DNA from: Kordia sp. TARA_039_SRF
GTDB lineage: Bacteria > Bacteroidota > Bacteroidia > Flavobacteriales > Flavobacteriaceae
Length of the DNA: 64,000 nucleotides
NCBI GenBank assembly: GCA_006383075.2
Contig: SMNH02000013.1
Span: forward strand, 1 to 64,000
Direction of reading: 5' to 3'
Shown: piece after piece, positions 28,501 to 58,390 of the stretch
How the letters are laid out: the number at the start of each line of letters is the position of its first letter
How positions within the stretch are numbered: the first letter of the stretch is position 1
The notes under the pieces: generated by a model
What the model was told of the DNA's origin: nothing
The model's database searches: none
What the model saw: the letters and a program-made list of their open reading frames with translations, nothing else
Program-made: the position numbers and the translations under genes

Positions 28501-31500
28501 ATGCTTCTTTTAGACTTCATAATGTTGGAATTCAAAAGTCGGATGATGAAATCACCGCTGAAATGATTCAAGAAATTTCCGATCAAGGATATGTAAGAAC
28601 TAAAGCTGATATTGACTTTTCTCTAGAAGAAATTGGAGACTATATAGATTTCAATGTAATTTATAATACAGATATCTATGAAAGAGAGATGATAGAAGGA
28701 TTCATGGTACATTTCAAAGAACTATTGAAATATATTATAGAAAATACGGATAAAACAATCAGTGAAGCTGAGTATATCACCGAGGCAGAAAAGGAGAAAA
28801 TCTTAGTTGATTTTAACGATAATGATAAAGATTTTTCAGAAAAAAATATACTTGAATCATTTGCACAACATGTAGAAGCTACTCCAAATGCAATCGCACT
28901 TATTTTTGAAGATAAAGAGCTAACGTATGAGCAGTTAGATAAATTATCTAACCAATTTGCAAATTATTTACTAAGCTTAAACGTTACGAAAGAAGAACTT
29001 ATCCCTATATGTTTAGAACGTTCTGTAGAAATGGTTGTTAGTGTCTTAGGTGTTTTAAAATCGGGAGGAGCTTATGTACCTATTGATGCAGCATATCCAG
29101 AAGAACGAAAAAACTATACTGTAAAGGATTCTAAAGCCAGATTGGTAGTTACTCAAAAATCATTACTAGACTCTTTTACATTAGGAGCTAATGTTTCTCT
29201 AATAGATATTCAAGAAGAAGCATATAAAAATCATCCAACTACTGCTGTAGATGTTGACATTCAAATGGATCAATTGGCAAATGTAATTTACACTTCTGGT
29301 ACTACTGGAAAGCCAAAAGGAACTATGATTGAATACAAAGGAATAGTCAATCTAATATACAACCAAGTAGCAGTATCAGACTTCCAACAAGGAGATCGAT
29401 TATTGCAATTCTCTTCATTTGCTTTTGATGCTTTCAGTTCAGAATTATACATGGCAATTACTACAGGATCAACTTTAGTAATGCCAACGCAAGAAGTAAT
29501 AGGACATACGGATGACTTAGTAGCGTTAATGAATGATAAAGGTGTAACCTTAACCTTGTTGCCGCCATCGTACAAAACACTGCTTAAAAACTACGAATTT
29601 ACTACTCTAAAAACCATCGTTTCTGGAGGAGAAGCACTCATTGCTGAGGAAGCATTACACTTTTTCAAAAAAGGAATCAGAATTATCAATGCCTACGGTC
29701 CTACGGAAAATATGGTAAATTCGACCATGACAAGAGGTCATTTTATCAATTCTGAAAAAGTTTCTATTGGGAAAACTTTAGCCAATGTAAAAGCCTATAT
29801 TCTTGATGAATCTCTGAGAATTTGCCCAATTGGAGTTGTTGGAGAACTCTGTGTAGCAGGAATTCAAGTGGCGAGAGGTTACTTAAACAGACCTGAACTA
29901 ACGAATGAAAAATTTGTACAAAATCCTTTCAGTGACAATACTGAATCCAAATTATACAAGACAGGAGATTTATGTAAATGGTTCCCTAATGGAGAAATTG
30001 AATACATAAGTAGAAAAGACAATCAAGTTAAAATAAGAGGAAATAGAGTAGAACTTGGAGAAGTTGAGTCTTGGTTGCAAAAACACGAAGATATCAACAT
30101 GGTAGTTGTTACCTTTAAAACAAATCCTGTAAAAGAGTTGGTAGCGTATGTGGTATCTGATAAAACGTTAGATGTGGATGAGTTAAGGTACTATTTAATG
30201 AAAAGAGTACCTACATACATGATTCCTAATTATTTTGTGCAAATAGACAAGATTCCATTGAATCACAATGGAAAAATGGACAAGTCAAAACTGCCTGAAG
30301 TAACTGTTGAAAACCAAGCAAGCGGCAAAATAGTTCCGCCAAAAACAGACGAAGAAAAAATACTAATCAAACTCTGTAAGCAAATTTTAGGCGTTGATAC
30401 TATCGGAATCAATAACAACTTTTACAATCTAGGAGGAGACTCCATAAAATTGATTTTACTGTTATCTAAATTAAAGAAAGAAGGCTTATTCTTAAAAACG
30501 AAAGCCGCTTTATATTCGGCAAACTTTGCTGAAATGGCAAGTAAAATGTCAAATGAAATGCTTCAAATTGATCAGCAAGAAGTTGAAGGACTAGTAGAAT
30601 TATTGCCAATTCAAGATATGTTTTTCAATACCTTGAAAATCAATAATAAAAATCATTTCAATCAATCAATTGTATTAGCTTCAGATAAGCGATTAGATAA
30701 AAAGGCGTTGACGCATAGTATTATGAAAATAGTGCAACACCATGATGCCTTACGTATGAAATACTACAAAAACGAACAAGGACAATGGGAGCAGTATAAT
30801 GACAAGTACGATGAAGAAAATATACCTATTCAATTTTTTGATTTAACTGATAGCGAAGATCCAATAGCCCGTATGGCACACATTGGGGATGAGATGCAAG
30901 CCTCTATAAATCTTGAAAAAGGTGAGATATTTAAAGTCATTCATTTTAAATTAAAAGACTCAGATCGAATAGCTCTTATTGCACATCACCTTGTCGTTGA
31001 TGGTATTTCTTGGAGAATAATAGTAGAAGACTTAAAAAGTGCTTATTATCAATATGTAGACAGCAAAGAAAGTTCACTTCCATTAAAAACACATGCTTTT
31101 AAACATTGGACTTCACAATTAAAGCTATATGCTGAAAAACTAGCCGAAACTGAAGAAAAAGATTATTGGAACAATATCGCAATTCAGGAGATTCCAAGCC
31201 TATTAAAAAAAGATTCTAATACTTACACGATTATTGACAATGAAGTAAATTTTGTATTACAAAAAGAGTACACGGAATTGTTGAATACTAGAATACACGA
31301 AGTTTACAATACTCAGATTAATGATATTCTTCTCACAGCACTGGGAATTACACTAAACGAAGTACTTGAAGCAGACACAACACTTCTTCGAATGGAAGGA
31401 CATGGAAGAGAAGAAATTTTTGACAATGTCGATATATCAAGAACCGTAGGTTGGTTTACAACGATGTTCCCGTTTGTTCTTAGCACAACTACTGACAAAA

Positions 31501-33200
31501 ATGTAATTGAAAATTTAATAGCAGTAAAAAAAGCTCTAAGAAATATTCCAAACAAAGGAATAGGATTTGGAATTTTAGATGTTTACACAAATGCAATAGA
31601 AAAACAAGTAAAGCCTAGTGTGTCGTTCAATTATTTAGGAGAATTTAAGGATGACGATCAAGATGATTCAATAGAAGAAACTGAAAACTCAGAAATCAAA
31701 TTTTCTTCTGAGTATATAGGAAGTGAAATAGGAGAGCATATTCCTGAAGAAGTTTCACTAAAAGTGTCAGGAAAAATCTATTCAGGACAATTAGAAATGT
31801 CAATACAGTTTTCAGATGAAGAATTTGATGTACAAACAATGCAAAAATTCACGGAGACTTACAAAAATACGTTAAAAGGTATTATAAATAATATTCTGAA
31901 TACCACCGAAGAGGATGTATATAAAAATTCTGAAGAGTTCTCCATTAGAAATGAATACCTATATAAAACATATAAAGTTTCTAGTAATCAGAATAGTATG
32001 CTAAAGATGAAGGAAAAAATTGGAATCAATGAATTTTATATTTCTGAATATGATGAAAATATTTTTAATCAAAAATTTAGGAAATTTCTTTCTCATTACC
32101 CATTTTTGTGTGTTAAAATAATAAAAGAGCATGGAGTTGTGGTTCAAGAGCACATTTCTCATGAAGAAGTTAAGGTAGCTGTTCAGAAATATGATTTGTC
32201 AATTACCGAAAGAAATGAAGTTGAGAAAAAAATGGAAGCGTTTTTCATGAAACCTTTCGAAGTTTTCTCTGAAGAGTTAATTCGTGTTTTTGTAATTACG
32301 GATAAAGAAAATAGAAAAGGAGCTCTTGTCAATGTAGGAATACATCATGGAATTACAGACGCATATACGAACGATTTTTTAATGAATATGATGCAACGCT
32401 ATTTTAATGGACAAGAAATAGAAACATCGCAATTTTCTAACTTTGAGTTTGCTGTAGAACAAGAAAACTTTATAGCATCCGTAGAAGGAAAATCGCAAAG
32501 AAAATATTGGACAGGACTTTATGAAAACCTTTTGCTTGAAACTGAAAATTTACATGATGAATTGTATACGCGTAATTTTGTAAAGCAAACGTTAACTATT
32601 CATGGAGAAGAGTTCGATTATTTAAAGAAAATCGCTTTAGATATTAAAGTACCAATAAATAGTTTATTAATGGCACTTCACCAGCATCTAATTGCTAAAT
32701 TTAATCCAGGAGCGGTGGTTCAAAATATAGTTTCTAACGGGCGCGAACAATCTACAGAAGAACATGTAACAATGCTAGGAGTAATGAGTAACATGTTACC
32801 AGTACCTCTTGTAGACAAAAAAGTTAAAAATGCTTTTAATTCTTCTTATGTAAAACTCATTTATGAAAAATATATAAATGTTCGTCTGCACCAAGAAATT
32901 CCTTTTGAAATAATCAAAGAAGATGTGTACAATAGTCGAAAAATAGACATTGAAAAAATCGCTGGCGGAAACTTTAATTACTTAGTTGCTGGTGAAAAAA
33001 TATCCCAAGGAAAAGAATTAGAAGTCAATTCATTAAACAGAGAAGATACCGTAGGAATTCATATGTATTGTGTTGAATATTCAAATGGAATTGAAATCAA
33101 TCTTACTTGTAGTGAATCCTTATACCAAGAAAAACAAGAGTTCTTAAATTTAAATACAATTATTAACAACAATCTACTTATTAAAAGAGAAATTAATTAA
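25551..33200 (+). CDS. NRPS: A(Hpg-like)-T-C-A-T-E-terminal C-like domain
   Basis: 2549 residues starting directly with an A domain (FTSGSSG near 180); there is no C domain at the N-terminus. Its pocket reads D-A-R-H-L-L-L-L-I, sharing D, A, H278, L299, L322 and L330 with 4-hydroxyphenylglycine codes such as DAYHLGLLC. T (GGNSIH, Ser 581), C (HHIICDG from 770), A5 (YTSGTTG from 1247; pocket D-A-S-L-I-S-A-V-N, unassigned), T (GGDSIK, Ser 1631) and E (HHLVVDG from 1812, EGHGREE, FNYLGEF) follow. The last about 420 residues form a condensation-superfamily domain with HHGITDA (2265-2271). No thioesterase is fused. This terminal domain may release or cyclise the chain, so this is probably the last assembly-line protein. 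The E domain implies a D-residue at the end. Confidence 0.88.
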   Translation: MNKKVIHTVFENIVAKMPDNIAIETSSNLITYAQFNAKANQIAHVLSELSKNREDIVCSFFEDKLTQLYALLGTFKAGKIYLPLDEKYKGNHWSVLYENICPKVVLTHEETIEKIESYNESFEYAIPQLVCITETNGELGIKVYKLLDGKYEEAYTVTDGNTENPEINIQGDDANYIFFTSGSSGRPKAVLGNHKSLSHFVHWETKELQITENDRIGQLTSLSFDASLRDIFLPLMNGATICIPSEEIKKDVKKLKVWLKENKISILHTIPTMMRLLMQDKNFRSIDGNYFTELKYLLLAGEKLFNKDITEWRALFGDNTCIINLYGTTETTLIKTFYRVPKELKGEATNGICVGKPISNCNILVLNEKNQICGIGEEGEVYIQTPFLTNGYYKEEQLNRQKFVPNPIGNFNDVIYKTGDYGKYDEDRNLIILGRKDGVIKLNGVRCDVNSIERNILELEEIKMLKCIPHTVEGTVQALVCFYSSEEQMTAAVKEHCMKFLSSYELLSLHFIHLKDFPVNSNGKVDTIELKEKVKQFFQKSDTIELPINETEQQLVSIWKEVLDIDRISVKDNIFLLGGNSIHLIQLTTRIHSVFGVELSIFDLFNLPVLKDQATKIATSNKSSHQKIPNAEVQENYPLSSAQYRIWVVSQDEESSKAYNTAKSIEVHDYLDAAILKNAILAVIERHEILRTVYKTNDNGEIRQWILPMESVDFKLDYVDYRGVEDAVEKIDRQIDENELRPFNLATGPLFRTTLYQISDNHFMLAYEMHHIICDGWSMGVFLRDLLTCYNAVKQGKEIELPELGIQYKDYACWDEAKFKDNSHDESLNFWKEELSGELPLLNLPTRKNRPSVKTHNGKQLRTYFSKEFSKEIKLFCNERETSLFIGLYTAFNILLHKYTRETDFIVGTPIAGRNHIDLENQIGVYVNTIPLRTKIQPEEIIEDLFDRVKKNVLETYKHQEYPFDHLVEKLKIKTDISRSPVFDASFRLHNVGIQKSDDEITAEMIQEISDQGYVRTKADIDFSLEEIGDYIDFNVIYNTDIYEREMIEGFMVHFKELLKYIIENTDKTISEAEYITEAEKEKILVDFNDNDKDFSEKNILESFAQHVEATPNAIALIFEDKELTYEQLDKLSNQFANYLLSLNVTKEELIPICLERSVEMVVSVLGVLKSGGAYVPIDAAYPEERKNYTVKDSKARLVVTQKSLLDSFTLGANVSLIDIQEEAYKNHPTTAVDVDIQMDQLANVIYTSGTTGKPKGTMIEYKGIVNLIYNQVAVSDFQQGDRLLQFSSFAFDAFSSELYMAITTGSTLVMPTQEVIGHTDDLVALMNDKGVTLTLLPPSYKTLLKNYEFTTLKTIVSGGEALIAEEALHFFKKGIRIINAYGPTENMVNSTMTRGHFINSEKVSIGKTLANVKAYILDESLRICPIGVVGELCVAGIQVARGYLNRPELTNEKFVQNPFSDNTESKLYKTGDLCKWFPNGEIEYISRKDNQVKIRGNRVELGEVESWLQKHEDINMVVVTFKTNPVKELVAYVVSDKTLDVDELRYYLMKRVPTYMIPNYFVQIDKIPLNHNGKMDKSKLPEVTVENQASGKIVPPKTDEEKILIKLCKQILGVDTIGINNNFYNLGGDSIKLILLLSKLKKEGLFLKTKAALYSANFAEMASKMSNEMLQIDQQEVEGLVELLPIQDMFFNTLKINNKNHFNQSIVLASDKRLDKKALTHSIMKIVQHHDALRMKYYKNEQGQWEQYNDKYDEENIPIQFFDLTDSEDPIARMAHIGDEMQASINLEKGEIFKVIHFKLKDSDRIALIAHHLVVDGISWRIIVEDLKSAYYQYVDSKESSLPLKTHAFKHWTSQLKLYAEKLAETEEKDYWNNIAIQEIPSLLKKDSNTYTIIDNEVNFVLQKEYTELLNTRIHEVYNTQINDILLTALGITLNEVLEADTTLLRMEGHGREEIFDNVDISRTVGWFTTMFPFVLSTTTDKNVIENLIAVKKALRNIPNKGIGFGILDVYTNAIEKQVKPSVSFNYLGEFKDDDQDDSIEETENSEIKFSSEYIGSEIGEHIPEEVSLKVSGKIYSGQLEMSIQFSDEEFDVQTMQKFTETYKNTLKGIINNILNTTEEDVYKNSEEFSIRNEYLYKTYKVSSNQNSMLKMKEKIGINEFYISEYDENIFNQKFRKFLSHYPFLCVKIIKEHGVVVQEHISHEEVKVAVQKYDLSITERNEVEKKMEAFFMKPFEVFSEELIRVFVITDKENRKGALVNVGIHHGITDAYTNDFLMNMMQRYFNGQEIETSQFSNFEFAVEQENFIASVEGKSQRKYWTGLYENLLLETENLHDELYTRNFVKQTLTIHGEEFDYLKKIALDIKVPINSLLMALHQHLIAKFNPGAVVQNIVSNGREQSTEEHVTMLGVMSNMLPVPLVDKKVKNAFNSSYVKLIYEKYINVRLHQEIPFEIIKEDVYNSRKIDIEKIAGGNFNYLVAGEKISQGKELEVNSLNREDTVGIHMYCVEYSNGIEINLTCSESLYQEKQEFLNLNTIINNNLLIKREIN

Positions 33201-41827: not shown

Positions 41828-44800
41828 ATGAAACTAACACTTCCTCAACAAGACATATATTTCGAACAATTGTTGTACACAGAAGATCCTATTTACAATA
41901 TTGGAGCAGCTATTTCAATTAAAGGAAATATATCATATGATATTCTCAATAAGGCTTACACTGCGTTGATAGACCAACATGATGCTTATAGAAGTATTGT
42001 GGTAACAAACACGCAAGGGGCTACCATTGAAATGTTGCACGAGCATACTTCGCAATTGGGTTATGAAGATTTTTCAGCTGAAACTTCTCCAAAAGAGAAA
42101 GCAGCAGCGTTTATGAAGCATACTTTTCAACAGGTATTTCGTTTTGAAGATAAAACGCTCTTGCACAAATTTATTTTGATTAAAGTTGAGGAATCATTCC
42201 ATTATTTATTCTCTATGTACCATCATATTATCACCGATGGTTGGGGAACTTCTTTAATGTTTCAGCGTTTAGTAAAAAATTATAATGAACTAGCTAACGA
42301 AGAAAAAATTAGTTCAGAATATCCTTATTCCTATCAAGACTTTGCAATTGATGATGAGAAATATGTAACATCGGAAGATTTTCAAAAGGATAAATTATAC
42401 TGGAAAGAAAAGTTTAAAAATCTGCCAGACCGCTTCTTACATACCATAAAATATGATGGTAAAAAAAACAAGAGCAGCAGAAAAGAATTGCTCATTAAAC
42501 GCTCAATGTATAATGAATTAGAGCAATTGGCGAAAGAAACTAGAAGTTCTACATTTCACATTATTTTAGCCGTATTATATCTGTATTTCGGTAGAAAACA
42601 TCAAGTTAATGAACTGGCAATAGGATTACCCGTATTGAATAGAAGCAAGTCCATTTTTAAAAAGACAGTAGGATTGTTCATGGGGGTTTCACCATTGCGA
42701 ATTGAATTGGATTTTGAAACAGCATTTACGGATTTAATTCTACAAATAAAACAACAACTTCGTCAAGACTACCGTCATCAACGTTTTCCTCTAGGGAAAT
42801 TAATTCACGAATTAGAACTTTTTGAAGATAAAGATAGACTCTTTAATATTACGCTTTCGTATGAAAAACAAAACTATGCAGACCATTTTAAGGATACGGT
42901 AACCAAAGTGGTTCCAATGACGCATGAATCTGAACGCGTTGCATTGGCATTATACATTAGAGAGTTTGACACTACGGAAGATGTAAAAATAGATTTTGAT
43001 TATAATCTTAACTATTTCGATGCTGATAGTATTGAAAAAGTAGTACAACATTTTGAATTACTACTGCATGAAGTTGCAAAAGATCACACAAAAAAGTTAA
43101 AAACATATACATACATAACTCCTGCAGAGCAAAAGAAACTTCTTGAAACGTTCAATCAAACAAAATTTGAAATTCCTAAAAAAACGGTATGTGCTTTATA
43201 TGAAGAACAAGCAAATAACAACGCAAACCAATTTGCTGTAATTGATCAGCATAAAGCTTATACTTACAAGGCATTACAAGAAAAGTCGAATCAAATTGCC
43301 AATTATATACGAGAACATTTTTCTAAAGTTTCAAAATCACCAATTGCAGTATTAATGAATCGTTCTGCAGATTTAATAGCAGTATTACTGGGAATATTGA
43401 AGAGTGGTCATTCTTACATTCCGTTAGATCCTACGTTTCCTGTGGAGCGTTTACAATATATAATGCAGCATAGTGAAGTTTCTTTCTTGTTTGGAGATGC
43501 TGTTTATAAAAATCTTTTGAACAACCATAGCGGATTTGTAAATGTTTCAGAAGTGGTTGCGAATGAAGCTTTATCTACTCAAGATGTGGATAATTCAACT
43601 CAAGAGTCTGATGCGTATATTATTTATACTTCAGGATCAACAGGAAATCCAAAAGGAGTGAAAATAGCGCACAATTCATTAGTAAACTTTCTTAAAAGTA
43701 TTCAACACAAACAAAAAATAACCTCTGAAGATATCCTATATTCAGTCACAACACAATCTTTTGATATTTCTATTCTTGAATTTTTCTTACCAATTACTGT
43801 GGGAGGTTCTGTGTACATAGCTAACAAGAAGACGCTTTCTGATCCTTTCAAAACCATAGAGGAAATTGAAAAGATGAAACCAACAGTGATGCAGGCTACA
43901 CCTAGTTTTTATCAAATGTTGTTCAATGCTGGTTGGAAAGGAGATAAGAAACTTAAAATATTGTGTGGAGGTGATTTGTTGAATCAAGCATTAGCATCAC
44001 AGCTGTTAGAAAACTCTAAAGAAGTTTGGAATATGTACGGTCCAACAGAAACAACAATATGGTCTAGCACTAAACAAATAAAAACTCCAAAAGACGCTTC
44101 AAATATTGGAAGTCCAATCTTTAATACACAATTATACGTATTAGATCGGTATAAAAAATTAGTACCGCAAGGCGTACAAGGAGATATTTACATAAGTGGA
44201 GATGGATTAGCCACAGGATACTTAAAAGATTTGGACTTAACCAATCGTAAATTCACAAAGCATCCATTTCTAAAAAATAAAAAAATATATCATACAGGCG
44301 ATATTGGAAAGTGGAATGAAAATGGAGAGATTTTATTTTTAGGTAGAAACGATTATCAGGTGAAAATTAGAGGATATCGCATTGAACTTGGAGAAATTGA
44401 AGCAGCACTTAATGCATGTGATGAGATAAAAACAAGCACTGTAATTGCTAAAAAAGAAGAAGTGCAAGAAGCATTTTTAATAGCGTATGTTATACCAGAA
44501 CACGAAGCAATAGACACACATAAAATAATGGAAGAATTGCATACAAAACTTCCGCAATACATGATTCCAAACTTTATAGAAACTTTGGAAGCTTTTCCTT
44601 TAACTCCAAATAAAAAAATTGATAGAAAAAAACTATCAGAAATGAATATTCATACACTTTCCAGTACGGATACGTTTGAAAAGCCACTTACAAATATAGA
44701 AATTAAGATAAGTGACTTATTTAAAAATGTATTGGCTATAGAAAAAGAAATAAGTAATACGGATAATTTCTTTGCTCTAGGAGGACATTCGCTAAATGCT

Positions 44801-46267
44801 GTACGGCTTATAAGCCTAATTGAACGTGAGTTCTATTGCCGTCTTTCTCTAAAAAATATTTTTGAAGCGCCAAGTGTAAAAGCTTTAGCTACATTATTAG
44901 AAAGTGGGAAAATTGAAAAAACAAAACCAATAGTTCCGATAGCAGAACAATCAGATTATCCAATTACGGCATCACAATATGCCTTGTGGCTTGCTGCTTT
45001 AAGCCCTGAGAAATCCATTGCATATAATATGTTTGCGGCTTTTAAAATAACTGGCGTAGTTCAAAGAGAATTATTAGAAAAGGCATTAGTCAAAATTATT
45101 AATCGTCATGAAATTCTTAGAACAAATTTCCTTGAAGTTGATGGATTACCAAGACAAAAAATCACTCATAAAGCAATCAATACATTCCATCTTGACGAAT
45201 TAGAAGTTGAAGATGAAAATATTGAAGATGCTATTGTAGCATACGCTTGTCGCGAGTTCGACTTAGCAAATGAACTCTTAGTAAGGTTAGGAGTGCTTAA
45301 AACTACAAGTGGCGATTCATATATGGTTTTTTCAACACATCATATCATTATGGATGGATGGTCTTTAGAGGTACTTATAAATGAACTGGCTAAGTATTAC
45401 AAAGCTCTAACTGTAAACGGAAACTCTAAAGAAGAAAAGTTGCCATTTCAATTTAAAGATTATGTGACTTGGTTAGCAGAGGAAGAGCGAGTAAACACAA
45501 AATCAAACCAAGAATTTTGGAGCACATATTTACAATCGTATCAATGGAAGAACCTCATTAAATTTGACACGATAGAGGAAGAACAATCTCAAACTGTGGC
45601 CATGTACTATTTCGCTTGGGATACAATAGTTTTAAACGATTTAATTGCTTGTGGAGTTCGACATAATACAACACTACATACTTTGCTAATTACAGCCTTC
45701 AATGTGTTAATCCATAAAATGTATCAACATGAAGATATCTGTATTGCAACAGTAAACTCAGGGAGAAATTTCTCAGATTCACATTCGCAAATGGGAATGT
45801 TTGTAAAAACGTTGCCATTACGTTCCAAGATTTCAGGATCGCAAACATTTTTAGACATCGTACATGCAACACATCAAAATTTACTATTGCTGGATACACA
45901 TCAAAATATGCCAGCTGAGGTACATAATAAATTACGATTTGAAATATTGATGGTTTTACAAAATACTAAGTTCAATTACGATACTATTGACTTGCATGAA
46001 GAATTACAACTCAATGCACATCCAATAAAGTCTACCTACAATAGACTTCCTTTACTTATAGATTTCCATAAAAAGCATACTGAGTTATCAGGTACTGTAA
46101 ATTATGATACTAGTAAATACGAAAAAGAAACGCTTGAATTGATATTTACGAAATACAAAAAAGTAATTGATCAAATTATAGAGCAACCAACAATTCAAAT
46201 AAACGCTATTGATATTGATTTGCCTTTTGAGAAGGAAGAAGCAATAGAAATAGATTTTAACTTTTAA
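41828..46267 (+). CDS. NRPS: C-A(Gly-like)-T-C
   Basis: 1479 residues. The N-terminal C domain starts almost at residue 1 without a docking segment and has HHIITDG (132-138). The A domain (YTSGSTG from 600) has a hand-read pocket D-I-L-Q-I-C-M-I-W, close to glycine codes (DILQLGLIW). T has Ser988 in GGHSLN. A final C domain has HHIIMDG (1171-1177), and the protein stops after it. Like the protein at 20972 it ends in a C domain and therefore needs an A-T partner in trans; the only NRPS here that begins with an A domain is the one at 25551. Its place after the peptide genes separates it from the other NRPS genes by about 8.6 kb. Confidence 0.88.
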   Translation: MKLTLPQQDIYFEQLLYTEDPIYNIGAAISIKGNISYDILNKAYTALIDQHDAYRSIVVTNTQGATIEMLHEHTSQLGYEDFSAETSPKEKAAAFMKHTFQQVFRFEDKTLLHKFILIKVEESFHYLFSMYHHIITDGWGTSLMFQRLVKNYNELANEEKISSEYPYSYQDFAIDDEKYVTSEDFQKDKLYWKEKFKNLPDRFLHTIKYDGKKNKSSRKELLIKRSMYNELEQLAKETRSSTFHIILAVLYLYFGRKHQVNELAIGLPVLNRSKSIFKKTVGLFMGVSPLRIELDFETAFTDLILQIKQQLRQDYRHQRFPLGKLIHELELFEDKDRLFNITLSYEKQNYADHFKDTVTKVVPMTHESERVALALYIREFDTTEDVKIDFDYNLNYFDADSIEKVVQHFELLLHEVAKDHTKKLKTYTYITPAEQKKLLETFNQTKFEIPKKTVCALYEEQANNNANQFAVIDQHKAYTYKALQEKSNQIANYIREHFSKVSKSPIAVLMNRSADLIAVLLGILKSGHSYIPLDPTFPVERLQYIMQHSEVSFLFGDAVYKNLLNNHSGFVNVSEVVANEALSTQDVDNSTQESDAYIIYTSGSTGNPKGVKIAHNSLVNFLKSIQHKQKITSEDILYSVTTQSFDISILEFFLPITVGGSVYIANKKTLSDPFKTIEEIEKMKPTVMQATPSFYQMLFNAGWKGDKKLKILCGGDLLNQALASQLLENSKEVWNMYGPTETTIWSSTKQIKTPKDASNIGSPIFNTQLYVLDRYKKLVPQGVQGDIYISGDGLATGYLKDLDLTNRKFTKHPFLKNKKIYHTGDIGKWNENGEILFLGRNDYQVKIRGYRIELGEIEAALNACDEIKTSTVIAKKEEVQEAFLIAYVIPEHEAIDTHKIMEELHTKLPQYMIPNFIETLEAFPLTPNKKIDRKKLSEMNIHTLSSTDTFEKPLTNIEIKISDLFKNVLAIEKEISNTDNFFALGGHSLNAVRLISLIEREFYCRLSLKNIFEAPSVKALATLLESGKIEKTKPIVPIAEQSDYPITASQYALWLAALSPEKSIAYNMFAAFKITGVVQRELLEKALVKIINRHEILRTNFLEVDGLPRQKITHKAINTFHLDELEVEDENIEDAIVAYACREFDLANELLVRLGVLKTTSGDSYMVFSTHHIIMDGWSLEVLINELAKYYKALTVNGNSKEEKLPFQFKDYVTWLAEEERVNTKSNQEFWSTYLQSYQWKNLIKFDTIEEEQSQTVAMYYFAWDTIVLNDLIACGVRHNTTLHTLLITAFNVLIHKMYQHEDICIATVNSGRNFSDSHSQMGMFVKTLPLRSKISGSQTFLDIVHATHQNLLLLDTHQNMPAEVHNKLRFEILMVLQNTKFNYDTIDLHEELQLNAHPIKSTYNRLPLLIDFHKKHTELSGTVNYDTSKYEKETLELIFTKYKKVIDQIIEQPTIQINAIDIDLPFEKEEAIEIDFNF

Positions 46268-48364: not shown

Positions 48365-49654
48365 ATGAACCAAAAAACTATAAAAACACTTACGTATAAT
48401 GCATCTCTTGAAAAAATTGAAGAAGATGTGATGGCATTCTTAAGTGAAGTACAATTAAATTTCCCCGATGCCATATCAATGGCTTCTGGTAGGCCAGATG
48501 AATCCTTTTTTGATTTAGAAAACACACAAAAATACATTGATACGTTTGTAAACTATAGAGCAAAACAGAATCAGGTAGAAGTCAGCGAGTATCTAGGAAG
48601 TCTAGGACAATACAATAGAGCAAAGGGAATAGTCAATGATTTGGCAGTTGAGTATTTAAAGAAAGATTATAATATACAATGTATTCCAGATGATTTAATT
48701 ATAACCGTAGGTTCTCAAGAGGGAATGATGCTTTCATTACTTACTTTAATGAATCAAGAAGTAGATACTATTTGTATTGAAGATCCAACATATATCGGAA
48801 TCAGTTATTTTTCACTAATTAATAATTACAATATAAAAAGTATTCCGGTAAAAGAAGATGGAATTTGTCTTGAAACATTGGAAGAGGTAGTACGTAAAAA
48901 ATCTATATTAGGAAAGCCAGTGAAGCTGGTATATGTAATTCCAGATTTTCAAAATCCTACAGGAGGCAGAATGCCTATTGAGAATAGAAAAAAACTCATC
49001 AGACTTGCGGTAGAATACAATTTTATCATTATTGAAGACAATGCTTATGGAGATTTTACTTTTGACAAGCAACAATATCCAACACTTAAATCGCTAGATA
49101 GCCATGGAGTAGTGGTATATCTACATTCTTTTTCAAAAATTTTACATCCATCATTGAGAATAGGAATTATGGTGGCTAATAGAAAAATGAATGAAAAACA
49201 AAAATTAAGTCATTTAATTGCTAAAGTTAAAGGTTACACAACTGTAAATACACCAGCTTTACCACAGGCTGTTTTGGGAGGAATTCTTCTTGATCAAAAA
49301 TTTTCTCTAAAGGCTTACAATGAAAAAAAGCTAGCAAATCTAAAATCGAAAAGAGACAAAGTGTTAGAGATGTTAGATGTAAACTTTAAAAAGTCATCAT
49401 CTGAAACATTACACAAAATATGCTGGAATACTCCAAAAGGAGGTTATTTTTTAACGCTTACGTTGCCATTTTCAATCGGAAAAGAAGATGTTGTAGAATG
49501 CGCAAGTACTTACAAAGTAATTTTCACTCCAATGTCATTTTTCTATCTAGGGAATGGTGGAGAAAATCAAATACGAATTGCTTACAGTTATATGCAAACT
49601 CATCAAATAGAAAAAGCAATCAAAAACTTAGCAGCTTTCCTAGCGACTAAATAG
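48365..49654 (+). CDS. PLP aminotransferase, HpgT/LysN-like
   Basis: 429 residues, fold-type I aminotransferase of the 2-aminoadipate/MocR-catalytic group without a GNTR DNA-binding domain. Visible motifs are ASGRPDESFF, EDPTYIGISY, PDFQNPTGGRMP, EDNAYGDF and the Schiff-base Lys K258 in HSFSKILHPSLRIG; the substrate-carboxylate Arg lies near the C-terminus (QIRIAYS). HpgT enzymes of glycopeptide clusters belong to this broad group and aminate 4-hydroxyphenylglyoxylate. The next two genes can provide that keto acid, so a role in 4-hydroxyphenylglycine formation is the best inference. A generic aromatic or branched-chain aminotransferase is the alternative. Confidence 0.78.
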   Translation: MNQKTIKTLTYNASLEKIEEDVMAFLSEVQLNFPDAISMASGRPDESFFDLENTQKYIDTFVNYRAKQNQVEVSEYLGSLGQYNRAKGIVNDLAVEYLKKDYNIQCIPDDLIITVGSQEGMMLSLLTLMNQEVDTICIEDPTYIGISYFSLINNYNIKSIPVKEDGICLETLEEVVRKKSILGKPVKLVYVIPDFQNPTGGRMPIENRKKLIRLAVEYNFIIIEDNAYGDFTFDKQQYPTLKSLDSHGVVVYLHSFSKILHPSLRIGIMVANRKMNEKQKLSHLIAKVKGYTTVNTPALPQAVLGGILLDQKFSLKAYNEKKLANLKSKRDKVLEMLDVNFKKSSSETLHKICWNTPKGGYFLTLTLPFSIGKEDVVECASTYKVIFTPMSFFYLGNGGENQIRIAYSYMQTHQIEKAIKNLAAFLATK

Positions 49655-49684
49655 TTCTTTTTTACAGTCAAAAAATACAGCAAG

Positions 49685-49712
49685 CTCAGACATACACAAG
49701 ATATGCTCTGAG
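49685..49712 (+). other. Hairpin in the aminotransferase-dioxygenase gap
   Basis: Arms ctcagacata and tatgctctgag pair with one bulged C around a seven-base loop. It lies midway in the 98-bp gap. There is no T-run; it may modulate read-through or mRNA stability. Confidence 0.3.
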
Positions 49713-49752
49713 TGAAACAAAATTATAACCAAATATCTAATAAATAGAAATC

Positions 49753-50862
49753 ATGAATGAAAAGTTAATAGAATCAGACTTCTTAAAAGTCGAGTACGAC
49801 TTCATTGAGTACTATGTCGGTATGGCAAAAATGGTCGTATATTGGCATGTTAAAGCACTAGGATTCAAAGTTGTTGCGTATTGTGGGCAAGAAACTGGAA
49901 ATCCTGATAAGTGTTCATATTACCTTGAGAAAAATAATATAAAACTTGTCATTACAGCGGCGTCAAGTCCTAGATCGCATAAAATTGTCTCTTTTGTAGA
50001 TTTACATGGAAATGGGATTAAAAAAATTGGGGTTAAAACAAAAGGGATCAAAAAGTTTTTTGAAAATGCTATGGAAAAAGGCGCAGTACCTATAAATTTT
50101 CCGCACACGCTTTCGGATAGTCATGGTACGGTAGATTTAGCATCTCTAAAAATATTTGATGATAACGAAATTGTATTGATTGACTATGATAATTATGATG
50201 GCGTTTTCATGCCAGGATATGAACCTGTTTCTGATGAGGAGTGGAGTTTCGAAAAAGAAGAATCATACCTAGAAGATATTGATCACATTGCAAGTGCATT
50301 AAGGATTAATGAAATTAAAATCTGGGAAACCTACTTCAATAATATTTTTTCTTCAAAAACAGTATCATGTTTTGATGAGAGACAAAAAGAAGGCGAAAAA
50401 AAGATAGGAATGTACCTGAAAGTGTTACAAACCAACGATAAACAAATGAACAATGTTTTGGTAGAGCCTGATCAGCATAAAAGTACACAAGTACAACTCT
50501 TTTTGGATGAACATTACGGTTCAGGAATCCAGCACATAGCATTCTCTTCATCAAATTTCTTTAAATCGGTTGAAATTCTTAGGAAAAATGGCGTGAAGTT
50601 TATTTCTTTTCCTGACTCTTATTATAATAATTTGCGTAGAAAATATCCAAACCTAGATGTTGATCCCATACAAAAACATGGTGTTTTATGTGATGTGGTA
50701 GATGATACCCTTTTATTTCAAGTATTTACAGCACCTATTGGAGATAGAGCAACTTTTTTCTATGAAATAGTACAACGTGTCAACTATTATGAAGGTTTTG
50801 GACTCGATAATATTTACACCCTTTTCGAGGCTATGGAAGAGGAAGTAATGATGAATAAATAA
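49753..50862 (+). CDS. HPPD-family dioxygenase, probable 4-hydroxymandelate synthase
   Basis: 369 residues, two vicinal-oxygen-chelate halves. Iron ligands are H178 (IDHIAS), H261 (GIQHIAF) and E338 (FYEIVQR), so it is a working HPPD/HmaS-type enzyme. Features lean to HmaS: LVEPD at 235-239 resembles the LLQPD of HmaS rather than the PLNEP of HPPD, and the C-terminal GFGLDNIYTLFEA has Ile354 where HPPDs have a conserved Phe and HmaS has Ile. HmaS turns 4-hydroxyphenylpyruvate into 4-hydroxymandelate instead of homogentisate. Flanking aminotransferase and hydroxy-acid oxidase genes are exactly the partners needed for 4-hydroxyphenylglycine. No homogentisate pathway gene is near. Confidence 0.8.
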   Translation: MNEKLIESDFLKVEYDFIEYYVGMAKMVVYWHVKALGFKVVAYCGQETGNPDKCSYYLEKNNIKLVITAASSPRSHKIVSFVDLHGNGIKKIGVKTKGIKKFFENAMEKGAVPINFPHTLSDSHGTVDLASLKIFDDNEIVLIDYDNYDGVFMPGYEPVSDEEWSFEKEESYLEDIDHIASALRINEIKIWETYFNNIFSSKTVSCFDERQKEGEKKIGMYLKVLQTNDKQMNNVLVEPDQHKSTQVQLFLDEHYGSGIQHIAFSSSNFFKSVEILRKNGVKFISFPDSYYNNLRRKYPNLDVDPIQKHGVLCDVVDDTLLFQVFTAPIGDRATFFYEIVQRVNYYEGFGLDNIYTLFEAMEEEVMMNK

Positions 50863-50868
50863 TAACTT

Positions 50869-52263
50869 ATGGAAGCATCTACTTTTGTAGAAAATCTAAT
50901 ATCAATTGTAGGTGAATATTATGTCCTTACAAACACTAATGATTTTTACACGTATGTAACAGATCATAGTACAGGCACAAAGGGAACTCCTTTATGTGTT
51001 GTTCGTCCTAGCTCAACTGCAGAAATTTCCATGATAGCCAAATTATGCAATGAACATACTGTTGGAATTGCTATAAGAGCAGGCGGAAGCGGAGTAAGCG
51101 GAGGTTTTTTATCTGGAAATGATTCTATCCTAATTTCTCTTGATCGACTAGATCGTATTATTGAAATTAATGAAATAGATAGGTACATAATAGCAGAAGC
51201 TGGCGTAGTAACACAAAACCTACAGGATGCTTTACACAATAAGGGATTGTGTTTTCCTCAAAATATTAGTAGTGCAAAATTAAGTTGCATTGGAGGAAAT
51301 GTAGCAGTTTCTAGTGGAAGCCCAAAATCTTTAAAATATGGAAGTACTAAAAAATATGTCTTAAACCTAGAAGTAGTATTGCCCAATGGAGAAGTGATTT
51401 GGACAGGGAAAAATATCAAAAAAAATGCTACAGGATATAATTTGACACAACTTTTCGTGGGTAGTGAAGGAACACTAGGTATAATTACAAAAGTAGTATT
51501 AGAAATTGTTCCTCTAAAAAAAGAAGCATTAATACTAGCTCCTTTTAAAAGTTCTGAAGAAATATTCTCTTTTGTAAAAGCCTTTTTTATGCATGGTTTT
51601 GATGCTTCAAGCCTAGAATTCCTTGATAAGAATGCTGCTGAACTAGTGTTCAATTACCTAAATAAAAAAATAACAGAAGAATCTATAGAAGGAATGATTT
51701 GGGTAGAGTTTGAATCTAGTCATGAACAAGATAACATGGTAAAGATGGAAGCACTCTATGAACTCATAAAATCATATACTCCGTATGAAATGCTAATAGG
51801 TCAAAATCCGAAAGAAAATGAAAAACTGTGGAGATATCGAAAAAAAATTGGAGAAGCTGCTATCAATAAAGGTTTTTTTCATGATTTAGATTTGGTGGTG
51901 CAACGATCAAAAGGTGCTGAAATATATAAAAAAATCGAATACGTCTGTAACTCTTTAGACTTAGAATTCATTGTAGTAGGTCACATAGGAGACGGAAACT
52001 TTCATGTAAATATTTTTAGAGATCCCAATATGAGTGATAATCGCTGGCAAGCTAATATTAAATTATGTGTTTCAACGCTACTAAAAGAAACGGTTAAACT
52101 AGGAGGAGAGATTTCGGGAGAACACGGAATAGGAAGCTACAATAAAACTTATTTTGAAGAGTTCACAGCGGAACAAAACATAAAAATTATGAAGGGCATT
52201 AAAAAGGTTTTTGATCCAAAACACCTATTAAACACAAATAATATTTTTATTAAAAAGCCCTAA
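50869..52263 (+). CDS. FAD-linked 2-hydroxyacid oxidase/dehydrogenase (GlcD-like), probable 4-hydroxymandelate oxidase
   Basis: 464 residues of the FAD_binding_4/FAD-oxidase_C family (GlcD, D-lactate dehydrogenase). It shows VVRPSSTAEIS, the FAD-contacting RAGGSGVSGG (about 63-72), GSEGTLGIIT, GHIGDGNFHV and SGEHGIG. It starts 6 bp after the dioxygenase stop and is clearly co-transcribed with it, which predicts oxidation of 4-hydroxymandelate to 4-hydroxyphenylglyoxylate. Known pathways use an unrelated FMN enzyme (Hmo, glycolate-oxidase fold) for this step, so this would be a non-orthologous replacement. GlcD-type enzymes usually take D-2-hydroxy acids. Confidence 0.8.
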   Translation: MEASTFVENLISIVGEYYVLTNTNDFYTYVTDHSTGTKGTPLCVVRPSSTAEISMIAKLCNEHTVGIAIRAGGSGVSGGFLSGNDSILISLDRLDRIIEINEIDRYIIAEAGVVTQNLQDALHNKGLCFPQNISSAKLSCIGGNVAVSSGSPKSLKYGSTKKYVLNLEVVLPNGEVIWTGKNIKKNATGYNLTQLFVGSEGTLGIITKVVLEIVPLKKEALILAPFKSSEEIFSFVKAFFMHGFDASSLEFLDKNAAELVFNYLNKKITEESIEGMIWVEFESSHEQDNMVKMEALYELIKSYTPYEMLIGQNPKENEKLWRYRKKIGEAAINKGFFHDLDLVVQRSKGAEIYKKIEYVCNSLDLEFIVVGHIGDGNFHVNIFRDPNMSDNRWQANIKLCVSTLLKETVKLGGEISGEHGIGSYNKTYFEEFTAEQNIKIMKGIKKVFDPKHLLNTNNIFIKKP

Positions 52264-52357: not shown

Positions 52358-53371
52358 ATGAACAGACAAGTACGAAAAGAGATGATGAAAATGATATATG
52401 GATATTATGTGTCATTTTCAATTGGACTCTGCGCCAAACTAGAAATTCCAGAATTACTTCAAAACAAAGCTCAAACAATAGAAGAGCTAAGTCAAAAAAC
52501 GGAAATGAATAAGGAAGCATTATTAAAAATGATGCGTTTATTGGTCGCAAATAATATTTTCACCGAAATTTCAGCTGAGAGTTTTAAGAATAATGAAATG
52601 TCAAAAACCTTAATTTCAGAACTCAAATACTTATCTCAATTACATGTATCACAAGTTTTTCAAGAGTCTTGGCGAAATCTTGAATATAGTATAAAAAATG
52701 AAAAATCGGCTACAAAATATGTAACAGGAAATTCATTTTATAATTATTTAAACCTTGATAAAAATCAAGAAATCAGAGATATATTTGATAAAGCCATGGT
52801 TGAAATTCAAAGTGAGGACGGCAGGGTAATCCATGACTACTATGATTTTTCGATTTACAAAAAGATATATGACATAGGCGGTGGTTCAGGGAAATTTTTA
52901 TCATCAATTAAAAGAAAATACGAACATATTTCTGCGACATTATTTGATACAGAAAAAGTTATCAATAAAATAAATCCAAACTCCATAGCGGATATTTCAT
53001 TATTAAAAGGAGATTTTTTTGAAAGCATTCCTAATGACGGAGATTTATATATTTTAAGGCATATTATTCACAATTGGGGTGATAATGAAGCTGTCCAAAT
53101 CTTAGAAGAATGTGTTAGTGAAACCTCTCATGAAGCTAGATTTTTAGTTATTGAAATGGTATTAGACACAGATAGCGAAAAGAAACAAACGAAAGAAGAA
53201 ATTACTATTTATAGAGATATACACATGTTAGTAGCTTTAGAAGGAAAACAAAGAACCTTAAAAGAATTTGAAGGTATTTTTTCTAGCGCTTCTCTAGAAA
53301 TAGAAGACATCATTTTGCTACCATCAGGAATGAATATTTTTAAATTAAAAAAACTAAAACATAAAAATTAG
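52358..53371 (+). CDS. SAM-dependent O-methyltransferase
   Basis: 337 residues. A helical, winged-helix-like N-terminal half for dimerisation (about 1-110) and a Rossmann half with the SAM motif YDIGGGSG (171-178) and LRHIIHNW with catalytic-type H238 identify the caffeate/acetylserotonin O-methyltransferase family (Methyltransf_2). Its location after the phenylglycine genes makes a phenolic hydroxyl (4-hydroxyphenylglycine or the peptide) or one of the hydroxyls placed by the oxygenases a likely target. Some family members demethylate or hydroxylate instead, but nothing here suggests that. Confidence 0.75.
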   Translation: MNRQVRKEMMKMIYGYYVSFSIGLCAKLEIPELLQNKAQTIEELSQKTEMNKEALLKMMRLLVANNIFTEISAESFKNNEMSKTLISELKYLSQLHVSQVFQESWRNLEYSIKNEKSATKYVTGNSFYNYLNLDKNQEIRDIFDKAMVEIQSEDGRVIHDYYDFSIYKKIYDIGGGSGKFLSSIKRKYEHISATLFDTEKVINKINPNSIADISLLKGDFFESIPNDGDLYILRHIIHNWGDNEAVQILEECVSETSHEARFLVIEMVLDTDSEKKQTKEEITIYRDIHMLVALEGKQRTLKEFEGIFSSASLEIEDIILLPSGMNIFKLKKLKHKN

Positions 53372-55010: not shown

Positions 55011-56363
55011 ATGGAAAACACAATACTTTCTGAAAAGTATTCCGATTTTGTGAATACTAAATCAGAAAAAATAGCAGCATTAATTGATACAAATGCTCCA
55101 GATGTTCCAAAATTATTTAGAGGATATTTATATCCAGTTAGCTCATGGCCTGTTATTATAAACAAAGAACAATCAACGACTCTAAATAAATTAAGCAAAA
55201 GAATTTTAAAATTAATTATGCAAATTCCTTCATTATATTTTAATAATGATGAGCAAAAAATAGCAGCGCATTATTTTGAAGGAGATACAATGTTGGCACA
55301 ACTTGCCATGATGTCTCATAACAAAAATAATCTGTCTTCCAGCCGTTTAGATTTAACTTATACAAAAGATGGGTTTAAAATTTTAGAAGTCAATATTGGT
55401 TCCAAAATTGGAGGATGGCAAGTACAAAGCTTCATTGAAATTATCAATGACAAACATCCTCTATTAAAAGAAAACTATAAAACCATCAATACACAAATCA
55501 AATATTATGAGTTTATAGTAGAAAATACATTAAAACAAGCGCGTGACATTGATAAAGAATTGAATATTTTCATTTCTATGGAAGAGATAGACGATGAAAT
55601 ACAAAAGGAAAATATTATTAATTTTTTAAACAAACAGTTAACGATAACCCTTCAACGGAAAGGATTACAGGGAAAAATATATGTAGGAAACTTAACAGAA
55701 TTAAATCTAGTAAACAATTCTCTTTACTTGGGCGACAAAAGAATACACACTGTCCTGAATAAAAGCGGAGAAGAAACTACTCCAGACATATTCAGAGCTT
55801 TTTTGATGAATGCAATTTATTTTCCAGATCACTTAGGCATCATCATGTATAAAGACAAAGGAAATCTTGAATTATTAAGAGAATTAGCAGAAAATAAAAA
55901 ATTCAGTTCAGAGGATAATGAAATGATTTTAAAGGCTATTCCTTGGACAAAAAAAATAAAGGAAAAAGAAGTGGTATTTAATTCAGAAACTCACAATCTC
56001 GTGACTTTATTGAGAAACCATAAAGATAATTTTGTTATAAAAGCCGCGTATGGATATCAAGGAAAAGATGTCTTCATCGGTAAATTCTGTACAGATAAAC
56101 AATGGGAAGAAGCAATTCAACTATCTCTAAGAGAAGAAAAATTTATTGCACAAGAATTTAGCGATTCTATAAACTTTATGGCACCCGATGTTGATAATGT
56201 TTGGGCAGAACACAAACTTATATGGGGATCTTTTGGTTTTGGAGAATTGTATGGAGGTGTTTGGGTAAGAATGTCAGCATTAAAAACAGATGTAGGAGTA
56301 ATAAACTCGGCTACCGGAGCTGTAGAGGCTATAGTTTATGAAACTAACTCTGAAAACAACTAA
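55011..56363 (+). CDS. Circularly permuted ATP-grasp-like ligase, copy B
   Basis: 450 residues, aligned over its whole length with copies A and C. Motifs are YPVSSWPVI, FKILEVNIGSKIGGW, YFPDHLGI, AIPWT, FVIKAAYGYQGKDVFIG and FIAQEF. Closer to copy C than to copy A (shared IPSLYFNNDEQKIA and SINFMAPD/SINFSAPN). The nucleotide-binding motif is intact, so it should be active. It is separated from copy A by the structured 177-bp gap and from copy C by 22 bp. Confidence 0.55.
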   Translation: MENTILSEKYSDFVNTKSEKIAALIDTNAPDVPKLFRGYLYPVSSWPVIINKEQSTTLNKLSKRILKLIMQIPSLYFNNDEQKIAAHYFEGDTMLAQLAMMSHNKNNLSSSRLDLTYTKDGFKILEVNIGSKIGGWQVQSFIEIINDKHPLLKENYKTINTQIKYYEFIVENTLKQARDIDKELNIFISMEEIDDEIQKENIINFLNKQLTITLQRKGLQGKIYVGNLTELNLVNNSLYLGDKRIHTVLNKSGEETTPDIFRAFLMNAIYFPDHLGIIMYKDKGNLELLRELAENKKFSSEDNEMILKAIPWTKKIKEKEVVFNSETHNLVTLLRNHKDNFVIKAAYGYQGKDVFIGKFCTDKQWEEAIQLSLREEKFIAQEFSDSINFMAPDVDNVWAEHKLIWGSFGFGELYGGVWVRMSALKTDVGVINSATGAVEAIVYETNSENN

Positions 56364-57729: not shown

Positions 57730-57745
57730 ATTGCCATACACATTT

Positions 57746-58390
57746 ATGACCTATTTACTATATACCTATGCCTCTGAGAGGAATCATAAAACACTAATAG
57801 ATAGATTTTTACCTGATTTCCCAGAAGATTTTCAAAACAATATATTATGTTATAGAAGGTGGCAAGATGCCCAATTAACCATCTTAGGAAGACTTCTACT
57901 TAAACAAGGACTAAAAAACTTTGGTGAAGAATACGACGAAAATGATATTATTTATACAGAATACGGAAAACCTAAATTCAAAAATGATAAAATAAAGTTT
58001 AATATTTCTCACTCTGGTACGATTGTGGTAAGCATACTTACGGATGTTAAAGAAGTAGGAATAGATATAGAAAAAATACACGACATTAACGTAAAAGATT
58101 TTGAACCTCAAATGTCCCACAATGAAATTTATAAGATTCAAAATGCAGTCAATGTTCAAGAAGCTTTTTTTAGTTATTGGACCCAAAAAGAAGCTGTTAT
58201 AAAAGCAAATGGTAAAGGTTTATACATTCCATTAAGTGCCTTTGAAATAATAGGCAATAAAACAAAAATAGCAGGTGACGACTTTTATTTAAAGAAGATA
58301 GAGATTGATGAAGAATATAAATGTTGTGTAGCTTTTAAAAATATAAATTTCACAGAAAAAATCAATCCGAAGAGAATTCGATTTTTTTAA
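57746..58390 (+). CDS. Sfp-type 4'-phosphopantetheinyl transferase
   Basis: 214 residues from ATG 57746; a TTG at 57731, right after the upstream stop, gives a longer frame but is a less likely start. It activates the carrier domains by attaching phosphopantetheine to the Ser of GGxS. Motifs are FNISHSG, VGIDIEKI with metal-binding Asp/Glu (D107, E109), and FFSYWTQKEAVIKANGKGL with W145, K148, E149 and K153. It ends the biosynthetic part of the cluster and should serve all seven carrier domains seen here. Confidence 0.88.
   Translation: MTYLLYTYASERNHKTLIDRFLPDFPEDFQNNILCYRRWQDAQLTILGRLLLKQGLKNFGEEYDENDIIYTEYGKPKFKNDKIKFNISHSGTIVVSILTDVKEVGIDIEKIHDINVKDFEPQMSHNEIYKIQNAVNVQEAFFSYWTQKEAVIKANGKGLYIPLSAFEIIGNKTKIAGDDFYLKKIEIDEEYKCCVAFKNINFTEKINPKRIRFF

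Follow-up and report, generated by a model that had tools for sequence, protein, structure and literature searches.

The window analysed here, 64,000 bases in length, forms the start of a 109,501-base contig from Kordia sp. TARA_039_SRF (Bacteroidota; GC content, 32 %). It harbours a large nonribosomal peptide synthetase (NRPS) gene cluster, within which three intact open reading frames (ORFs), located on one strand and spaced by 98 and 6 nt, are predicted to code for an aminotransferase, a dioxygenase with the fold of 4-hydroxyphenylpyruvate dioxygenase (HPPD) and a FAD-linked 2-hydroxyacid oxidase (coordinates of all features in Table 1). The side-by-side location of this trio had been pointed out in a first-pass annotation of the stretch and was confirmed; since the same gene order recurs in other genera, it is not a product of chance. 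Based on the sequence features described below, the three genes very likely supply 4-hydroxyphenylglycine (Hpg) as a building block of the peptide assembled by this cluster. This pathway assignment, likewise proposed in the first-pass annotation, is supported by residue changes in the dioxygenase, affiliation of the aminotransferase with an HpgT-like clade, the presence of a separate HPPD in the genome and Hpg-like adenylation (A) domains in related clusters. Hpg, so far described mainly in actinobacteria, is a hallmark constituent of vancomycin-type and related antibiotics; its D-form serves as an industrial side chain of semisynthetic β-lactams.

The window dioxygenase scores 267.6 bits against the HPPD model TIGR01263, which is below the curated cut-off of 277. 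A search for a separate housekeeping HPPD, as advised in the first-pass annotation, revealed a full-scoring copy elsewhere in the same genome (C1:200561-201625; 447.7 bits; 32 % identity to the window dioxygenase), so that the window gene is not the only one; a third match to this model is short (34.9 bits) and contains an internal stop. Active-site residues were compared in an alignment of 25 rows (24 distinct) of the family of the window enzyme, 10 actinobacterial 4-hydroxymandelate synthases (HmaS; including 2R5V and 7YVV), 35 HPPDs and one outlier. The HPPD rows comprise 29 from Bacteroidota (the housekeeping HPPD of this genome and the 28 best non-family matches with loci), four from plasmid records and two solved structures. 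All iron ligands are present in the window enzyme (H178, H261, E338), and the equivalents of both iron-binding histidines, the iron-binding glutamate, Gln293, Gln307, Gln379 and Asn423 (AtHPPD numbering) are kept in 25 of 25 family rows. At the positions of Ser267, Pro280, Asn282 and Phe424, the window enzyme carries Leu, Val, Val and Ile, whereas Ser, Pro, Asn and Phe occupy them in all 35 HPPD rows. The Phe424 position is filled by Ile in 21 and by Val in four of the family rows, and by Ile or Val in all 10 actinobacterial HmaS, which also possess Ile, Val or Leu at Asn282 (10/10), Thr at Pro280 (10/10) and mostly Ser (7/10) at the Ser267 position, which we take to be Ser201 of A. orientalis HmaS. 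With I354 and V237, the window enzyme harbours the two features taken here as marks of HmaS function, Ile or Val at Phe424 and an aliphatic residue at Asn282, and is classified on this basis as a predicted HmaS. The motif LVEPD (residues 236-240) and Ile354 had already been highlighted in the first-pass annotation; Ile354 indeed aligns with the HPPD phenylalanine, and the HmaS-type changes are shared by the family rows. Replacements at these positions are known to affect catalysis: the F337I variant of a bacterial HPPD is described to lose about 98 % of its activity and to form hydroxymandelate beside homogentisate (PMC3739788, crediting Gunsior 2004), and the N282A and S267A variants of AtHPPD to be about 160-fold and 12-fold less efficient, respectively, Asn423 of the same enzyme binding the 4-hydroxyl group of 4-hydroxyphenylpyruvate (HPP; PMC6750108).

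The window aminotransferase shares 32-36 % identity (234-280 bits) with aminotransferases encoded near HmaS in six Streptomyces plasmid loci. Its best non-cassette match in the tree set scores 142 bits, and its next best match in the own genome 43.5 bits (determined with a different program). In a tree of 46 rows, calculated without the three weak own-genome matches, 11 cassette rows and the six actinobacterial rows form a single clade (support 97/94), the HpgT label of the latter being derived from their gene neighbours. The window enzyme falls into this clade and is accordingly predicted to be HpgT-like. HpgT takes Tyr as amino donor (PMC9321520).

HPPD-family matches (E ≤ 1e-20) were detected in 210 of 395 genomes sampled across the phylum. 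Relatives of the window dioxygenase with more than 45 % identity were found in two of these 395 and in three of 397 genomes of the taxonomic family (both counts including the present genome), as well as in five of 398 Flavobacterium genomes. A scan seeded with two short peptide patterns yielded 22 loci (working labels L for loci and G for genomes are used below where needed). Overall, the close family (at least 65 % identity) comprises 17 copies in 16 genomes: this Kordia (one copy), K. periserrulae (two), Flavobacteriaceae assemblies (two), Flavobacterium (six), Hymenobacter (two), Chitinophaga (one), Chitinophagaceae (one) and other Bacteroidetes assemblies (two). The aminotransferase gene adjoins the dioxygenase gene in all 17 close copies and a GlcD-type oxidase gene does so in 13 of the 16 with enough contig, L068 ending too early. 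In the seven more distant members (L070-L076; 37-49 % identity), a GlcD match is adjacent throughout, albeit weak in L073-L076 (117-144 bits). The latter four, labelled as Flavobacteriales, Bacteroidota or Saprospira, represent a diverged variant (37-40 % identity), in which Val occupies the Phe position and Met the Ser position. Two whole cassettes, located on different contigs, are present in K. periserrulae (L055, L056), each in a cluster with an A domain of the code DIFHYGFVF.

Pocket codes of A domains were read from an alignment including the dbv NRPS of Nonomuraea gerenzanensis, the Hpg modules of which presumably are those with the codes DIFHLGLLC, DALHLGLLC and DAFHLGLLC; the pattern D-[IAL]-[FL]-H-L-G-L-L-C served as the reference for Hpg activation. 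The best candidate for Hpg activation in the Kordia genome is the first A domain of the NRPS starting at 25551. Its pocket had been given as D-A-R-H-L-L-L-L-I in the first-pass annotation; this reading requires correction, position 301 being Ala rather than Leu. By eye, the corrected code is the most Hpg-like of 16 codes obtained from 17 own-genome A-domain matches (E ≤ 1e-30). As the NRPS starting at 20972 ends with a condensation (C) domain and that at 25551 begins with an A domain, both would act in sequence. The codes found in relatives, DIFH[FY]G[LF][IV][FV], agree with the dbv Hpg codes at five to six of nine positions and retain His278. At most about 20 kb separate such a DIFH-type domain from the cassette in the two K. 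periserrulae copies (one of the domains being directly upstream), in L057, L058, L063, L064, L065 and F. tructae; the domain was also found in G827 and G1134, amounting to 10 of the 17 close copies. All five Flavobacterium genomes with the cassette possess an Hpg-like A domain (DIFHFGLIF/VF), and among the 398 sampled genomes of this genus only these five exceed 343 bits to the DIFH domain (three candidates scored per genome); the best matches of other Flavobacterium genomes, available with locus for 25 of the 36 matching, yielded no DIFH code (0/25).

To study the origin of the dioxygenase, a maximum-likelihood phylogeny was calculated from 54 of the 71 aligned rows, 17 similar rows having been removed by hand and the midpoint root serving for drawing only. 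The 18 family rows constitute one clade (support 100/100), next to which a group of eight HPPD-type enzymes from two Bacteroidota families (itself supported by 94/80) is placed; a branch with support 100/99 separates the two from the remaining 28 rows. Actinobacterial HmaS form a different clade (100/99) on the far side of the tree. Forcing the family and actinobacterial HmaS together resulted in a tree worse by 60.6 log-likelihood units (approximately unbiased (AU) test, p = 0.0004), a rejection that is conservative, because the shared residues stayed in the alignment and pull toward union. Considering some long branches, the odd composition of the rows from actinobacteria, the modest number of HPPDs sampled and a row set without HPDL, the key dioxygenase and actinobacterial HmaS appear to have evolved separately. 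The phylogenetic comparison with HPPD and HmaS references suggested by the first-pass annotation thus set the enzyme apart as a clade of its own, but placed it beside Bacteroidota HPPDs and not with actinobacterial HmaS. Horizontal gain of an actinobacterial HmaS was considered as well and is rejected by the tree and the AU test.

An 'hppD' gene on a plasmid of Candidatus Bandiella numerosa (Rickettsiales; L175, 15378-16415) codes for a protein with the HmaS-type residues Ser, Val, Ile and Ile and is neighboured by genes for an aminotransferase, SbnA/SbnB, MbtH, a phosphopantetheinyl transferase and a short-chain dehydrogenase/reductase (SDR) enzyme. The protein is located on a long branch beside actinobacterial HmaS (93/98), the aminotransferase outside the HpgT-like clade. 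This locus perhaps represents an Hpg-like pathway in an intracellular symbiont.

The 2-hydroxyacid oxidase named in the first-pass annotation is a hydroxyacid oxidase beside the dioxygenase; its domains (PF01565 and PF02913), however, define it as an FAD enzyme of the GlcD type and not as the FMN-dependent Hmo. The best NCBIfam model is glcD (TIGR00387; 301.9 bits versus a cut-off of 567.9), and the score below this equivalog cut-off indicates that the protein is not GlcD itself. It carries the motifs GHxGDGNxH and SGEHGxG, combines FAD_binding_4 and FAD-oxidase_C with metal-site motifs, and does not possess the FMN_dh/LldD-type fold that defines Hmo. The closest solved relatives are LctD, glycolate oxidase, and D-lactate and D-2-hydroxyglutarate dehydrogenases (substrates according to their names). 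No full-length FMN_dh protein was detected in the genome, the two matches (33.9 and 26.7 bits; cut-off 24.9) covering 86 and 75 of 350 positions. GlcD-type genes are common, with matches (E ≤ 1e-25) in 12 of 61 sampled genomes including the present one. The cassette oxidases do not resolve into a single clade in the GlcD tree, in which the L071 and L072 enzymes are placed on the background side (86/99). Common descent with the FAD-type oxidases of two Streptomyces loci (L080, L081) was considered and found unsupported; the latter group with background GlcD, and their position elsewhere in the tree suggests separate recruitment.

The type of oxidase may be connected to the stereochemistry of the intermediate. 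HmaS is described as (S)-selective, the Hms of S. coelicolor forming 99.6 % S product from phenylpyruvate, a value not determined there for HPP itself (PMC3720870). All six actinobacterial dioxygenases paired with an FMN oxidase have Ser at position 201, and both of those paired with an FAD oxidase carry another residue; in the Bacteroidota family, Ser is likewise replaced wherever a GlcD gene is adjacent (loci examined). Thr occupies this position in 7YVV, which carries the database label '4-hydroxyphenylpyruvate dioxygenase' and is presumably the (R)-4-hydroxymandelate synthase AcmP1. The GlcD-type oxidase and the replacement of Ser201 thus suggest a route via (R)-4-hydroxymandelate, as judged from a small set and the presumed identity of 7YVV. 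A more comprehensive scenario is put forward tentatively, with somewhat more doubt than confidence: HmaS would have arisen independently from HPPD in a Bacteroidota-centred lineage and form the (R)-product, a D-hydroxyacid-type FAD oxidase would follow, and only the aminotransferase lineage would be shared with actinobacteria. Part of this scenario is a pairing rule, by which Ser201 would go along with an FMN oxidase and (S)-hydroxymandelate, and Thr, Ile, Leu or Met with an FAD oxidase and (R)-hydroxymandelate.

In the proposed pathway, the dioxygenase would convert HPP and O2 to 4-hydroxymandelate and CO2, with decarboxylation and hydroxylation of the benzylic carbon instead of the ring. The GlcD-type FAD enzyme would then oxidize 4-hydroxymandelate to 4-hydroxybenzoylformate, and the HpgT-like aminotransferase would reversibly convert Tyr and 4-hydroxybenzoylformate to HPP and Hpg, so that HPP would be regenerated. 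The A domain with which the 25551 NRPS begins would finally use Hpg. We infer these catalytic steps, their stereochemistry and the use of Hpg by this A domain from sequence comparison.

Other products of the same genes were considered. The three steps could act on phenylpyruvate and yield phenylglycine or another arylglycine. This would agree with the turnover of phenylpyruvate by S. coelicolor Hms (kcat of 0.88 versus 4.5 per second for HPP; PMC3720870) and with the pocket of the window A domain, which is not a standard Hpg code, but is rendered unlikely by the Asn conserved in every family row at the position contacting the 4-hydroxyl group in AtHPPD, and by the resemblance of the relatives' DIFH codes, including His278, to Hpg codes. 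Alternatively, the dioxygenase might be a second HPPD forming homogentisate for pigment, quinone or tyrosine breakdown, with unrelated genes as neighbours. Despite the HPPD fold, the family score near the cut-off and the HPPD-type neighbours in the tree, this option was rejected as hardly credible in view of the replacement of all four HPPD-specific residues in every family row, the full-scoring HPPD elsewhere in the genome and the HpgT-like aminotransferase; moreover, the window ORFs that were scanned yielded no match to a homogentisate-pathway family. Finally, 4-hydroxymandelate or 4-hydroxybenzoylformate could itself be the building block or be degraded to 4-hydroxybenzoate, the aminotransferase only converting Tyr to HPP. 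The candidate A domains, however, keep Asp235, presumably the usual contact of the amino group, and the aminotransferase shares a clade with enzymes encoded near actinobacterial HmaS. Mammalian HPDL forms 4-hydroxymandelate from HPP as an intermediate of coenzyme Q synthesis (PMC13111500), showing that such products have other uses, and L059-L061 have no adjacent oxidase gene; taken together, this third alternative is regarded as very unlikely.

Several observations nevertheless weigh against formation and use of Hpg. The window dioxygenase lies nearer to HPPDs than to HmaS of actinobacteria, and the Ser201 and the Thr of the latter (7/10 and 10/10 rows, respectively) are replaced by Leu and Val. 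Beside the dioxygenase gene, no GlcD match was detected in Hymenobacter lucidus, H. rubripertinctus and L061 (together L059-L061), an NRPS gene being the next ORF in H. lucidus and L061. An adjacent aminotransferase of the HpgT-like clade is found in none of the seven distant members, which have either no aminotransferase match (L070, L071, L072, L075) or one of another branch (L073, L074, L076). The first A domain of the 25551 NRPS is divergent (28-29 % identity to the best relatives among the loci compared), and its code agrees with the dbv Hpg codes at six of nine positions, with unrelated codes reaching five of nine; these we take to be Val-like and Gly-like codes and that of a dbv Dpg-type domain. 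The connection between supply and use drawn in the first-pass annotation is thus only moderate in the window, where it is weaker than in the relatives and the code is not decisive by itself. The possibility of a DIFH-type domain elsewhere in the genome was also examined: none was found in the window or among the 16 codes of the 17 own-genome matches, nor in the examined, often short stretches of L059, L060, L061, L062, L067 and L068.

Table 1 Features of the Hpg cassette and the surrounding NRPS cluster (positions within the window)
Feature	Position	Strand	Details
NRPS, 3 C and 2 A domains	8295..16205	+	Codes DIWQSTADD, DMAEIGSVD
NRPS, C-A-PCP-C (PCP, peptidyl carrier protein)	20972..25432	+	Code DLTKIGEVG
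NRPS starting with an A domain	25551..33200	+	2549 aa; 2 A, 3 C, 2 PCP
First A domain of the 25551 NRPS, best candidate for Hpg activation in the genome	25551..27170	+	Pocket D-A-R-H-L-A-L-L-I
NRPS, C-A-PCP-C	41828..46267	+	Code DILQLGMIW
Pyridoxal phosphate-dependent aminotransferase, predicted HpgT-like	48365..49654	+	429 aa; PF00155
HPPD-fold dioxygenase, predicted 4-hydroxymandelate synthase	49753..50862	+	369 aa; TIGR01263, residues, tree
Leu222 codon	50416..50418	+	Aligns with AtHPPD Ser267; Leu/Met in 25/25 family rows, Ser in 35/35 HPPD rows
Val235-Leu236-Val237 codons	50455..50463	+	Val235 and Val237 correspond to Pro280 and Asn282 of AtHPPD; Val/Val in 25/25 family rows, Pro/Asn in 35/35 HPPD rows
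Ile354 codon	50812..50814	+	Aligns with AtHPPD Phe424 (numbered F337 in the F337I variant)
GlcD-type FAD-linked D-2-hydroxyacid oxidase/dehydrogenase, predicted to oxidize 4-hydroxymandelate	50869..52263	+	464 aa; PF01565, PF02913
O-methyltransferase adjoining the cassette	52358..53371	+	PF00891, PF08100
4'-Phosphopantetheinyl transferase	57731..58390	+	PF01648

Apart from the cassette, the cluster harbours four NRPS genes (starting at 8295, 20972, 25551 and 41828) and a gene for a lone condensation protein (16308), as well as genes for tailoring oxygenases, a TonB-type receptor, a thioesterase, an ABC transporter and the phosphopantetheinyl transferase. The codes of the NRPS starting at 20972 and 41828 are presumably Asn-like and Gly-like, respectively. 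Since the window begins at the contig end, the left part of the cluster may be missing: in the region 1-2330, where the cluster reaches the contig end, the first ORF codes for a polyketide-type protein with ketoreductase and acyl carrier protein domains, has a TTG start and is perhaps cut. The protein encoded at 2447-3115 is related to BesD-like amino-acid halogenases (PF23169 HalD, 155.6 bits; BesD model, 110.3 bits versus a cut-off of 450) and possibly halogenates a free amino acid other than the BesD substrate. Genes for a diaminobutyrate transaminase (EctB model, 568.1 bits; cut-off 552.2) and an aspartokinase are located at 3133-4401 and 39869-41197, respectively. Together with the code DIWQSTADD, which we take to be 2,4-diaminobutyrate (Dab)-like, they would make up a second pair of supply and use. 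A PF01177 racemase is encoded at 4445-5194; Asp/Glu racemase genes also occur near the Streptomyces HmaS of L080 and L081. One of the several cluster oxygenases is an FlmC-family 2-oxoglutarate-Fe(II) oxygenase (35641-36195; 257.7 bits versus a cut-off of 240). For the O-methyltransferase adjoining the cassette, a relative with 24 % identity is encoded about 1.9 kb from HmaS in a Streptomyces locus (L084), and it may be guessed that the enzyme methylates the phenol group of Hpg. Between 53427 and 57729, three tandem homologues of about 450 aa each were identified, for which neither Pfam nor NCBIfam gave a match at 0.001 and PHROGs gave none better than E 0.02; a search of PDB with one of the three (55011-56363) gave no match. 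One relative (43-51 % identity) is encoded in a K. periserrulae cluster (L046, 14851-16242).

The nocardicin-like formadicins have been described from a bacterium then called Flexibacter, so that Hpg compounds may have some precedent in gliding bacteria. Among the titles listed by a literature search, with most subscription journals outside its coverage, none reports Hpg biosynthesis in Bacteroidota. The terms 'Hpg', 'phenylglycine' and 'mandelate' are absent from the main text of a genome-mining paper on Bacteroidetes, in which three Kordia genomes are given an average of 10 biosynthetic gene clusters (PMC9248904). As predicted here, the chemistry would be that of the known pathway, the novelty residing in a separately derived dioxygenase and a different oxidase family. 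If correct, an independently evolved Bacteroidota route would enlarge the search space for Hpg peptides and represent a natural repeat of the switch from HPPD to HmaS, by which the residues needed could be distinguished from mere effects of lineage. An (R)-selective hydroxymandelate synthase, together with an FAD oxidase that fits it, may become available as well, and the clusters of Kordia, Flavobacterium, Hymenobacter and Chitinophaga offer themselves as testable Hpg-peptide clusters.

Several known systems are comparable to the Kordia cassette. The housekeeping HPPD of the same genome shares the fold, iron ligands and glutamines with the window dioxygenase and differs in having Ser, Pro, Asn and Phe at the four discriminating positions. 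We know of no NRPS or aminotransferase context for mammalian HPDL. By its published description, HPDL is likewise a relative of HPPD that converts HPP to 4-hydroxymandelate (PMC13111500). Two Streptomyces plasmid loci (L080, strain NBC_00887; L081, S. finlayi) resemble the cassette in encoding an HmaS-type dioxygenase, annotated as HPPD in both, near a GlcD-type FAD oxidase and in having a residue other than Ser at position 201 (Ile and Thr, respectively). In contrast to the cassette, their dioxygenases belong to the actinobacterial clade, their oxidases to another GlcD branch, and an Asp/Glu racemase gene is located nearby; in L081, the stretch examined contains no aminotransferase match. With the actinobacterial Hpg pathway (HmaS, Hmo and HpgT; dbv cluster and Streptomyces plasmid loci), the Kordia cassette is predicted to share all three reactions. 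Common to both are the changes from Phe to Ile or Val and from Asn to an aliphatic residue, a related aminotransferase and, in Bacteroidota relatives, Hpg-like A-domain codes. Unlike actinobacterial HmaS, the Bacteroidota family carries Leu or Met at Ser201 and Val instead of Thr at the Pro280 position, and the Bacteroidota pathway would be distinguished by a dioxygenase of separate origin and by a GlcD-type FAD oxidase in place of the FMN-dependent Hmo.

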